The translations under genes were made by a program, and so were the position numbers. A model generated the notes under the pieces. That model did not search any database. It had not been told where the DNA came from and saw nothing but the letters and a program-made list of their open reading frames with translations. 64,000 nucleotides of DNA from a bacterium (GTDB lineage Bacteria > Actinomycetota > Acidimicrobiia > Acidimicrobiales > CATQHL01), in contig JAPOVS010000022.1 in assembly GCA_026708055.1 (NCBI GenBank), positions 1-64,000 on the forward strand. The letters run 5' to 3'. Positions 51,453 to 54,902 of this stretch are shown one piece after another. How positions within the stretch are numbered: position 1 is the first letter of the stretch; each line of letters opens with the position of its first letter.

Positions 51453-52382
51453 ATAGCGTCAAACACTGTCGGGCAAGCACCCCCGCCACCGCCCGACGAT
51501 CGGGATGAGGCACTGCACCAAGTCCTCGACGACGGGGTCGTTTGGGGGGACGCGGAACTCTGGCTGGAGCGTCTGCCGGCAGAGTCGGTGGACCTGTTCT
51601 TCACCTCGCCCCCCTATGCCGACGCTCGGGCTTACTCGCGGATCCACCCGGACAACTACGTCGAGTGGTTCCTGCCCTTCGCCGCGGCGATGCGCGAGGC
51701 AACAGGCCCGACCGGATCGTTCGTGCTCAACATCAAGAACCGGGTGGCGAAATCAGGAGAACTGCAGGGCCAGCGTCACCCGTACGTCTACGAGTTGGTG
51801 CTCGCCATGCAAAGGATGGGTTGGCGGTGGGTCGAGACGTACATCTGGGCCAAGCCGAACGCCATCCCCGGCCGGTTCGGGCCGCGGACCAAGGACAGCT
51901 TCGAGTACGTGTACCACTTCGCCAAAGGGCCCAAGCCGTTCTTCGACCTCGACGCGGTGCGAGTCCCCTACAAGGCCGATCCGGCAGAGATCGCCAGGCG
52001 GCTCGGCGACCCCAACGGCCGCAAGAACACCGACGCCGGGTTCGGTCGGGACAGGACCAAGACCTACGGTTGCGGCGGCGCCGATCCGGGAAACGTCATC
52101 GCCGTCAGCCAGAGCTACAACCAGCACCACGGTCCGGCAGGACGCCACACCGCCGTCATGCCCGAGGGCCTCGCGGAGTTCTTCGTGAAGCTGGCCTGCC
52201 CACCCGGCGGGGTTGTCGTGGACCCGTTTGCAGGGTCGGGCACCACGATGGTCGCGGCGCGCCGCCACGGACGGCGGGCCGGTGGAATCGAGTTGCTCGA
52301 CGAATACGTCGCCGTGGCGACCGAACGGCTCGCCGACGACTGCGTCCAGGAGGAGTTGGGGCTACTCCGTGTCGCTATCTGA
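51453..52382 (+). CDS. Orphan beta-type DNA methyltransferase (N4-C or N6-A) with non-standard start
   Basis: SAM-dependent DNA methyltransferase of permuted (beta) order: the catalytic motif FFTSPPY comes first, then the target region (TYIWAKPNAIPGRFGPRTKD), and the SAM motif VVDPFAGSGTT near the end. The first ordinary start, GTG 51588, begins right at VDLFFTSPPY and would remove the expected WGDAELWLERLPAES lead-in, which is encoded in frame upstream. No ATG, GTG or TTG lies in that open stretch (51423-51587). TATCAT ends 6 bases before an in-frame ATA at 51453, copying the leaderless spacing seen elsewhere, so I place the start there. No restriction enzyme is adjacent. Confidence 0.8.
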   Translation: MASNTVGQAPPPPPDDRDEALHQVLDDGVVWGDAELWLERLPAESVDLFFTSPPYADARAYSRIHPDNYVEWFLPFAAAMREATGPTGSFVLNIKNRVAKSGELQGQRHPYVYELVLAMQRMGWRWVETYIWAKPNAIPGRFGPRTKDSFEYVYHFAKGPKPFFDLDAVRVPYKADPAEIARRLGDPNGRKNTDAGFGRDRTKTYGCGGADPGNVIAVSQSYNQHHGPAGRHTAVMPEGLAEFFVKLACPPGGVVVDPFAGSGTTMVAARRHGRRAGGIELLDEYVAVATERLADDCVQEELGLLRVAI

Positions 52383-52489: not shown

Positions 52490-52789
52490 TCACGCCACCG
52501 GGGTCCGCCGACGCTTCAAGCGCACATCCACGTCGTAGCCGAACACGCGCGCCACGGCGTGAAGGGTCTCGAGGCGCGGGCTGTGTCCCGCCGACTCGAG
52601 ACGGGAGATCGCGCTGCGCGGCACTCCTACGGCTTCGGCGAGTTGCTGCTGCGTCCAGTTCCGTTGCTCGCGCAGGGCGCGCAGCTGGCCGACTATCGCG
52701 CGCCTCAGTCGCAGCGTCTCGTACTCCGCCTGGATTTCGGCGTCGTCGGCGACGATCTCTTCAATGTGCGCTCGGGCGTTGCTGGCCAT
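52490..52789 (-). CDS. higA: HigA-type Xre antitoxin
   Basis: 99 residues. C-terminal helix-turn-helix (LREQRNWTQQQLAEAVGVPR, SAISRLESAGHSPRLETL) with a basic tail. The order toxin then antitoxin is that of higBA systems. ATG 52789 has GAGGAG 5 bases upstream and overlaps the end of higB by 29 bases. It should repress the locus promoter at 53130-53158. Confidence 0.88.
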   Translation of the reverse strand: MASNARAHIEEIVADDAEIQAEYETLRLRRAIVGQLRALREQRNWTQQQLAEAVGVPRSAISRLESAGHSPRLETLHAVARVFGYDVDVRLKRRRTPVA

Positions 52790-53129
52790 GACGGCTCCTC
52801 CAATCCGCAAGCCGCCGCCGGGCGGTGGCGAGTTCTCGTCTATCAAGGGTCTGAGACCGCTTTCGCCACGCGTGGAGGAGGACGTATCTGCCTCCAAGTA
52901 CGGCGAAAGCGATCCGGTGCGAGCGGGGCCGCAGCTCGAAGATGCGCTCGGCGCGGTCGATGATCCGGGATTCGGGCATACGCAGCGCGCTCCCCCGTTC
53001 CTCAAGTTCCACAATCAGGTCGAGGATCGCCGCCACGTCGCGCTTGTCCCCCGAGCGCCCAAGTCATTCCACGTAGTCCGCTACAGGCTCGTCGCCTCTG
53101 GCCGTCCCGTAGTAGACGACATCCGGCAC
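52761..53129 (-). pseudogene. higB: HigB-type toxin interrupted by a TGA codon
   Basis: Read from GTG 53129, the frame encodes a HigB/RelE-like toxin: PDVVYYGTARGDEPVADYVE, then a TGA (53066-53064), then LGRSGDKRDVAAILDLIVEL and the toxin core ending YVLLHAWRKRSQTLDRRE. Both halves are in one frame and match the family layout, so a single base change, for example TGG to TGA, has cut the protein after residue 21. TACACT ends exactly 6 bases before the GTG, supporting that start. A fragment from ATG 53036 could still be made, but it lacks the first strand. Confidence 0.8.
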
Positions 53130-53158
53130 ACACGAAGTGTAGCATATATGTGACAGAC
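53130..53158 (-). promoter_or_regulatory. higBA promoter and operator region
   Basis: On the minus strand TGTCACATATATGCTACACT holds the self-complementary CATATATG next to the TACACT -10 box. AT-rich for this genome and placed for HigA autorepression. Confidence 0.45.
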
Positions 53159-53166
53159 ACGGCTGG

Positions 53167-54846
53167 TCAGAGCGGGCGGTATTCCAGCAGCGACGACTGA
53201 CCTCTCATCGCCACGAACCTCACGTCACACGCGTTGCCGTGGGCGTCTTGGAGACGAAGGATCTCCTCGCCGACGGCGAAGTGGACCGCGCCGGAGCTGA
53301 GGGCGCCGTTGACAGCCACGTTGTCTGTGTACAGACACGTACGCCCGTCCCCGTCGAGTATCGGGTCGAGTCGGCCTTCGATGCCCGGCAGGGACCCGGT
53401 CCGGTCTTCGAAGATTGCCGAGCCGCCGCCGACCAGCGGCACCAACTCGACGCTCAAGGCGCCCTCAGCCGGAACCCAACCTGTCGATACGTGGGCGCTC
53501 AGATCCGGCCCTGCGACGAACACCGTCATCGGCACGTCCTCGGTGTGGAGGTCGAGGCGGGCCACACCCCTCGCGTCGGTCGTCGCGCCGCGTCTCGTGC
53601 CGTTGGGAAACAGCGCCAGGACAGCCGCAGCGTCAACCGGGGCGCCCTCGCTGCCGACGATCACCGCCGTGTGGGTGTCGAATCGGCTCAGTGCCGCAGG
53701 GAATCTCCCGAGCGGCACCACGTCGACCTCCGACCGAGACTGCTGATTGTCGCCGCCGAAGACAACGGTCCGGGCCGTAATGCCGGGGACAGTCGCGGCG
53801 ACACGGTGCAACGGCCCGAACCAGTCGGAGGCCACGGTTGCCCCCGACTTGATCTCGACGGCATGGATGCCGCGCCCAGTCTCCTGGAACAGGTCGCATT
53901 CCAGCCCGCCCGATTCCCGGTAGAAGCTGAGCCGGGGATGGCGCCCGCGGTTGAAGCTGTGCTTCATCGCTTCGGCGACCACCATGTTCTCGAACAGTTG
54001 GCCGCGCAACGGGTGGGTCGCTACTTGGCTCGGTTCACCGATCCCCAGCAGGTGGCTGGCGAGGCCGACGTCGTAGAAGTAGATCTTCGGCGACTTCACC
54101 AGCCGCTTTCGAATGTTGGCGAAATACGGCGGCAACAGGAAGGCGATGTAGCTGCGCTCGAGCACGGCCAGCCAATGCCGGACGGTCGTGTGTGTCACCC
54201 CCGCGTCCGCGCCTAGCTGTGCCGAGTTGACGAGTTGCCCGACTCGTCCTGCGCACAGCGCCGAGAACCGTCGGAATGCCGAGAGGTCGCCGACGCCGCC
54301 CATCCGGCGGACATCCCTCTCGACGTAAGTGTCGAAGTAGTCGGCCAGCGCCTGTCGCGGCTCGAGTCGCTGGTCGATGATGCGCGGGTAGAAGCCCCTG
54401 TACGCGATCTCGGCGAACGCATCTGCCCCGCCCGCCCGGCGACTCTCCTCGAACGAGAACGGAAGCAGGCGCAGCTGCGCTATCCGGCCGGCCAGAGACT
54501 CGCCGACCGCCTCGTTCAGCTTGAAGTTCTCGCTGCCGGTGAGCACGTACAAGCCGTTCGCGCCGCGGGCATCGGCCGCTTCCTTCAGATACGAGAAGAG
54601 CGACGGCACATGCTGGACTTCGTCGATGACCGCCGGCGTGCCGAGGTCGCGCAGGAATCCCCGCGGATCGCGCTCGGCTCGCTCACGGACATCGAGCGCG
54701 TCCAAGCTGGCGTAGCTGACCTCAGCGTCGTCGAAGAGGGACTGGCACAGCGTCGTCTTGCCGGACTGGCGCGGCCCGGTCACCGACACGAACGGGTACT
54801 GTCGGAACAGTTTCAGTACAAGATCGGCAATCTCTCGACGAATCAC
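53167..54846 (-). CDS. AAA-type ATPase with DUF4143 and an extra C-terminal domain
   Basis: 559 residues from GTG 54846. Walker A VTGPRQSGKTTLCQSL, Walker B TPAVIDEVQHVPSLF, LYVLTGSENFKLNEAV, then DUF4143 with the winged-helix segment and PKIYFYDVGLASHLLG and GGLECDLFQETGRGIHAVEIKSG (nuclease-like fold). Most relatives end near residue 400; this one has a further 160 residues rich in beta strands (FDTHTAVIVGSEGAPVDAAA and on). The frame is open to TTG 54888, but TATGAT ends 6 bases before GTG 54846, which also gives the usual VIRREI start. Role unknown; often in mobile regions. Confidence 0.85.
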   Translation of the reverse strand: MIRREIADLVLKLFRQYPFVSVTGPRQSGKTTLCQSLFDDAEVSYASLDALDVRERAERDPRGFLRDLGTPAVIDEVQHVPSLFSYLKEAADARGANGLYVLTGSENFKLNEAVGESLAGRIAQLRLLPFSFEESRRAGGADAFAEIAYRGFYPRIIDQRLEPRQALADYFDTYVERDVRRMGGVGDLSAFRRFSALCAGRVGQLVNSAQLGADAGVTHTTVRHWLAVLERSYIAFLLPPYFANIRKRLVKSPKIYFYDVGLASHLLGIGEPSQVATHPLRGQLFENMVVAEAMKHSFNRGRHPRLSFYRESGGLECDLFQETGRGIHAVEIKSGATVASDWFGPLHRVAATVPGITARTVVFGGDNQQSRSEVDVVPLGRFPAALSRFDTHTAVIVGSEGAPVDAAAVLALFPNGTRRGATTDARGVARLDLHTEDVPMTVFVAGPDLSAHVSTGWVPAEGALSVELVPLVGGGSAIFEDRTGSLPGIEGRLDPILDGDGRTCLYTDNVAVNGALSSGAVHFAVGEEILRLQDAHGNACDVRFVAMRGQSSLLEYRPL

Positions 54847-54869
54847 AGAGTCATCATAACAACGGGTAC

Positions 54870-54902
54870 GTGTAATCTGAAAGCTCAAGTTTCAGATTAC
54901 AC
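54870..54902. promoter_or_regulatory. Perfect 13-base palindrome upstream of the DUF4143 ATPase
   Basis: GTGTAATCTGAAA - 7 bases - TTTCAGATTACAC, AT-rich and perfect. It overlaps the expected -35 region of the ATPase promoter (-10 TATGAT), so it may be an operator. It could equally be a hairpin left by a mobile element. Confidence 0.5.

Follow-up and report, generated by a model that had tools for sequence, protein, structure and literature searches.

In the type II toxin-antitoxin (TA) module HigBA of Streptococcus pneumoniae (PDB entries 6af3 and 6af4), a PF05973/HigB toxin with a C-terminal helix is encoded first in the operon and is followed by an XRE antitoxin; R68, R73, F90, and K92 make up the putative active site of the toxin, and F17 and M20 are residues that contact HigA (PMC7984235). 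Orphan antitoxins and degraded type II TA loci are reported to be abundant in Klebsiella and Escherichia coli, and orphan antitoxins have been proposed to be anti-addiction genes or regulators (PMC7192599, PMC10790755). The locus described here lies in a 64,000-nucleotide stretch of DNA (the window) of a metagenome-assembled genome (MAG). It shares the toxin-first order, the toxin family with its C-terminal helix, and the XRE antitoxin with the S. pneumoniae system and, like the orphan antitoxins and degraded TA loci, has an intact antitoxin that apparently stands without a working toxin. Unlike the Klebsiella and E. coli cases, however, the toxin remnant is nearly complete, being interrupted by one nonsense codon, and belongs to an uncultured genome. 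We consider it highly probable that this is a HigBA-type module that was acquired horizontally and whose toxin was recently silenced by one nonsense mutation, with retention of the XRE antitoxin (Table 1). The locus is a fresh instance of well-known TA decay that leaves the general understanding unchanged; it provides a clear single-base example of a TA module whose toxin is lost ahead of an antitoxin that is still intact, as one would predict were the toxin the more costly partner.

Table 1. Features of the higBA-like locus (positions in the window)
Feature	Position	Strand	Basis
higB-like toxin gene (PF05973 Gp49/HigB, RelE fold), broken at codon 22 of 122 (final stop not counted)	52761..53129	-	Translation, profile, PDB and relative alignments
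In-frame TGA, codon 22, mid helix 1 (residues 15-25 of L024 model)	53064..53066	-	Translation and L024 model
Possible downstream restart ORF from GTG 53036, 91 aa (initiation hypothetical)	52764..53036	-	ORF, alignment, L024 model
Intact higA-like antitoxin gene (XRE/HTH_3), 99 aa	52490..52789	-	ORF and Pfam
Imperfect palindrome GTCACATATATGCTAC, putative HigA operator (inferred binding)	53139..53154	.	Conserved in L024 and L025
TACACT, -10-like hexamer, six bases 5' of GTG 53129	53136..53141	-	Equal spacing in L024-L027

The preliminary description of this DNA had presented the frame from GTG 53129 as a complete HigB save for a TGA at 53066-53064; the coordinates proved exact and the gene real, as judged from PF05973, 6af3, and relatives. 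Translation shows that this TGA is the sole internal stop in the 122 codons. With the stop read as X, the product matches PF05973 (Gp49) in Pfam at an E value of 2.4e-10 (40.7 bits, against a curated cutoff of 23.9), and a phmmer search of the PDB matched S. pneumoniae HigB (6af3) at an E value of 7.7e-13 over query residues 3 to 113. Because the latter match begins at residue 3, the 21 residues preceding the TGA are also homologous and belong to the gene. Owing to the TGA, the window higB is not a full-length HigB/Gp49 ORF and was classed as a broken copy. The substitution at codon 22 is the only lesion; a second one is absent, and the putative active-site residues are retained. The proposal that the cell had kept the antitoxin and silenced the toxin by a single nonsense codon is thus borne out, with one TGA in an otherwise open frame and an intact HTH_3 higA.

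Relatives of the module were found by scanning one genome per species (GTDB contigs). Two of them, L024 (JAPOXB010000103.1) and L025 (VYDC01000104.1), share 81% and 80% toxin identity, respectively, with the window over all 122 codons, and three more-distant ones share 55% (L026), 47% (L027), and 48% (L028); all five are in MAGs labelled Chloroflexi or Dehalococcoidia. Comparison of codon 22 in relatives, as the preliminary description had proposed, gave a sense codon in each of L024 to L028; the residues in this column are variable, and neither a stop nor a Cys occurs there in any relative aligned. A natural toxin start downstream of the TGA was also considered and can be rejected, because the alignments with relatives begin at the GTG/ATG at 53129 and those with L024 and L025 run over the full length, which upholds the proposed start. 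Because the intact copies have an uninterrupted frame beginning at the equivalent start and both the distant relatives and S. pneumoniae HigB align across the stop, the natural start lies upstream of it. The L024 and L025 modules resemble that of the window in start, gene overlap, operator-like palindrome, and antitoxin (81 to 87% identity) but differ from it in that the toxin is intact and the flanking genes are unrelated.

As in L024 to L028, the window toxin gene lies directly upstream of the XRE antitoxin gene, which is the type II HigBA order. The antitoxin gene is intact, as had been claimed: it matches PF01381 (HTH_3) in Pfam at an E value of 9.6e-18, its first 29 nucleotides (nt) lie within the 3' end of higB, and a GGAGGAG Shine-Dalgarno-like motif lies just 5' of it. 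Upstream of the toxin start, the palindrome GTNNCAYATATGNTAC is common to the window, L024, and L025, and the conserved promoter/operator-like block stops 6 nt before the start codon. The constant spacing of the hexamer in the window and in L024 to L027 suggests a leaderless mRNA for the module. A strict sigma-70 consensus scan found no promoter at the toxin start; promoter spacing, which had been invoked in favor of this start, is therefore replaced as support by the relatives and the conserved promoter/operator-like block. HigA was also considered as a wider regulator and rejected as such, since no second exact copy of the palindrome occurs in the genome and a reversed-pattern control gives near matches at a similar level. 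Near-perfect, one-mismatch operator-like palindromes occur at G000:C27:51681-51696 and G000:C59:9365-9380, at chance level by the same control.

The structure modelled was that of the intact L024 protein. The AlphaFold model (mean pLDDT of 87.7) contains a strand (residues 3 to 6), helices at residues 15 to 25 and 29 to 45, four further strands, and a final helix (residues 97 to 114). It superimposes on S. pneumoniae HigB (6af4) with a TM score of 0.83 and an E value of 4.6e-9, at about 30% identity, and thus has a RelE-like fold; codon 22 falls inside helix 1. S. pneumoniae HigB aligns across the stop, and the nonsense codon at position 22 exists only in the window copy. Equivalents of R68, R73, and K92 are common to both toxins, F90 is replaced by W in the window, and all four positions come after the stop; the equivalents of F17 and M20 map before it.

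For an estimate of selection, replacement and silent changes specific to the window, L024, and L025 lineages were counted. The replacement-to-silent counts are 19:19, 4:15, and 5:14, respectively, for higB and 7:12, 5:11, and 11:14 for higA. In higB the window differs from the two relatives combined (19:19 versus 9:29; Fisher's P = 0.03, with P = 0.02 for the post-stop part), and higA shows no replacement excess in the same comparison (P = 1.0). Polarization with L026 to L028 shifts three of the higB replacements that separate the window from L024 and L025 to the side of the latter; because these three are then derived in the relatives, the excess is at most a weak signal of relaxation in the window higB. 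The dN/dS of the post-stop part of higB is 0.18 to 0.19 for the window against L024 and L025, well below 1, and 0.06 between these two; that of higA is 0.15 to 0.19 for the window, similar to the 0.19 of the L024-L025 pair. These values point to a toxin gene that was constrained for most of its history and to a recent stop.

In the reading that we prefer, a toxin-first type II TA module would have arrived horizontally as one unit, and a single nonsense mutation at codon 22 would recently have inactivated higB, the loss of activity being deduced from the broken frame. Translation from GTG 53129 would then yield only a 21-residue peptide, and since the putative active-site residues are all encoded after the stop, this product would be without an active site. 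With a ribosome-binding site of its own, higA should remain translatable, and HigA probably continues to repress the module promoter, if the module is autoregulated; as a side effect, it might neutralize related incoming HigB toxins and so act against addiction.

The main uncertainty is whether the single base is correct in a MAG. Given the retained catalytic residues and the lack of a second lesion, the lesion could have arisen very recently, could be polymorphic, or could be an artifact of assembly. If the base were wrong through assembly or sequencing, or if the MAG consensus had fixed the variant of a minority strain, the real gene would be intact. Such an error agrees with one substitution being the only lesion in 122 codons whose remainder is conserved, putative active-site residues included, and with a genome that is a draft in 87 contigs. 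Per-base consensus errors are rare in short-read assemblies, however, and broken toxins of the PF05973 family are not. A survey of 395 genomes of the class gave 131 PF05973 matches, of which 6 have a stop within the aligned region (counted by hand); this is a lower bound, as the window's own stop fell outside its aligned stretch in that search. Two further HigB-family toxins of the same phylum are broken beside an intact XRE gene, one by an internal TAA (L016, 1469-1813) and one by a frameshift and a TAG (L020, 1504-1794). The latter are independent parallels and, together with the window locus, suggest that toxin decay recurs in the HigB family. With the somewhat larger number of replacements in the window higB than in its relatives, this makes an error unlikely. 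Open PF05973 toxins also exist elsewhere in the window's genome.

Re-initiation at GTG 53036, 27 nt past the stop, would produce a shortened toxin of 91 residues. By itself the ORF reaches 40.4 bits against PF05973; it keeps the equivalents of R68, R73, F90 (as W), and K92, and belongs to the part of the gene that is still constrained. Nevertheless, strand 1, helix 1, and part of helix 2 would be missing from its product, and with them the equivalents of the HigA-contact residues F17 and M20 (PMC7984235); to judge from the L024 model, this product is unlikely to fold. Moreover, relatives with the same local sequence use the full-length start codon, and the constraint is explained by an ancestry predating the mutation. 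We therefore regard re-initiation as quite improbable. Similarly slight is the probability that the stop is a stable and useful state, in which selection would keep the antitoxin for its anti-addiction effect on related HigBA modules in circulation among related bacteria and the near-intact toxin frame would supply trace protein by leakage or re-initiation.

TGA followed by C is considered a leaky context in E. coli. The TGA of the window is followed by C and the frame past it is open, as would suit the suggestion in the preliminary description that low-level readthrough may give a little toxin. As a designed and useful feature, readthrough is not borne out and is very improbable: the intact relatives have a sense codon in this variable column and none has a stop there, the next 50 nt fold worse than shuffled sequences (z = +1.54), and other broken copies carry their stops at other places. 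A basal leak, as through any TGA, is possible. Because a tRNA-Sec gene is present in the genome (L048; G000:C26:120070-120161; 64.3 bits against RF01852, ARAGORN anticodon TCA), selenocysteine had to be weighed, but this or a reassigned amino acid is exceedingly improbable, as no relative has a Cys at the column that would mark a selenoprotein, folding against shuffles gave no SECIS-like structure after the TGA, TGA serves as the stop codon of higA, and translation table 11 otherwise applies. The tRNA-Sec gene leads us to expect true selenoproteins elsewhere in the genome.

The horizontal origin that we propose for the silenced module is suggested by its surroundings. DNA identity is 83% between the window and L024 and 81% between the window and L025 over about 660 to 665 bp. 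The matching stretch opens shortly upstream of the start codon and closes where higA ends; it is limited to the module, and similarity does not extend into the flanks. The module was not found in any other of the eight genomes of the genus examined, several of which are incompletely covered MAGs, and collections of viral, phage, and plasmid sequences held no relative of it. Flanking genes without the module are present in three genomes of the genus (the methylase in G005, G006, and G007 and the ATPase in G006 and G007), and gene order around the site is rearranged within the genus. Because homology is confined to the module, the flanks are unrelated, and the module is absent from the sampled genus genomes, the locus fits horizontal acquisition as a compact TA unit.

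Two neighboring genes differ within the genus. An AAA_14/DUF4143 ATPase (53167-54888, minus strand) is 573 residues long in the window and 402 to 405 in G006 and G007, where about the last 160 to 170 codons of the window gene have no counterpart. An N6/N4 DNA methylase gene adjoins the TA module (51588-52382, plus strand); directly beside the methylase, where the window has higBA, G005 and G007 have an ORF that is unrelated and matches nothing in Pfam (L057:3620-4906, minus strand, and L058, 2700-3164); it encodes 428 residues in G007 and runs off the contig in G005. As a guess, this ORF may be a restriction partner that was lost in the window.
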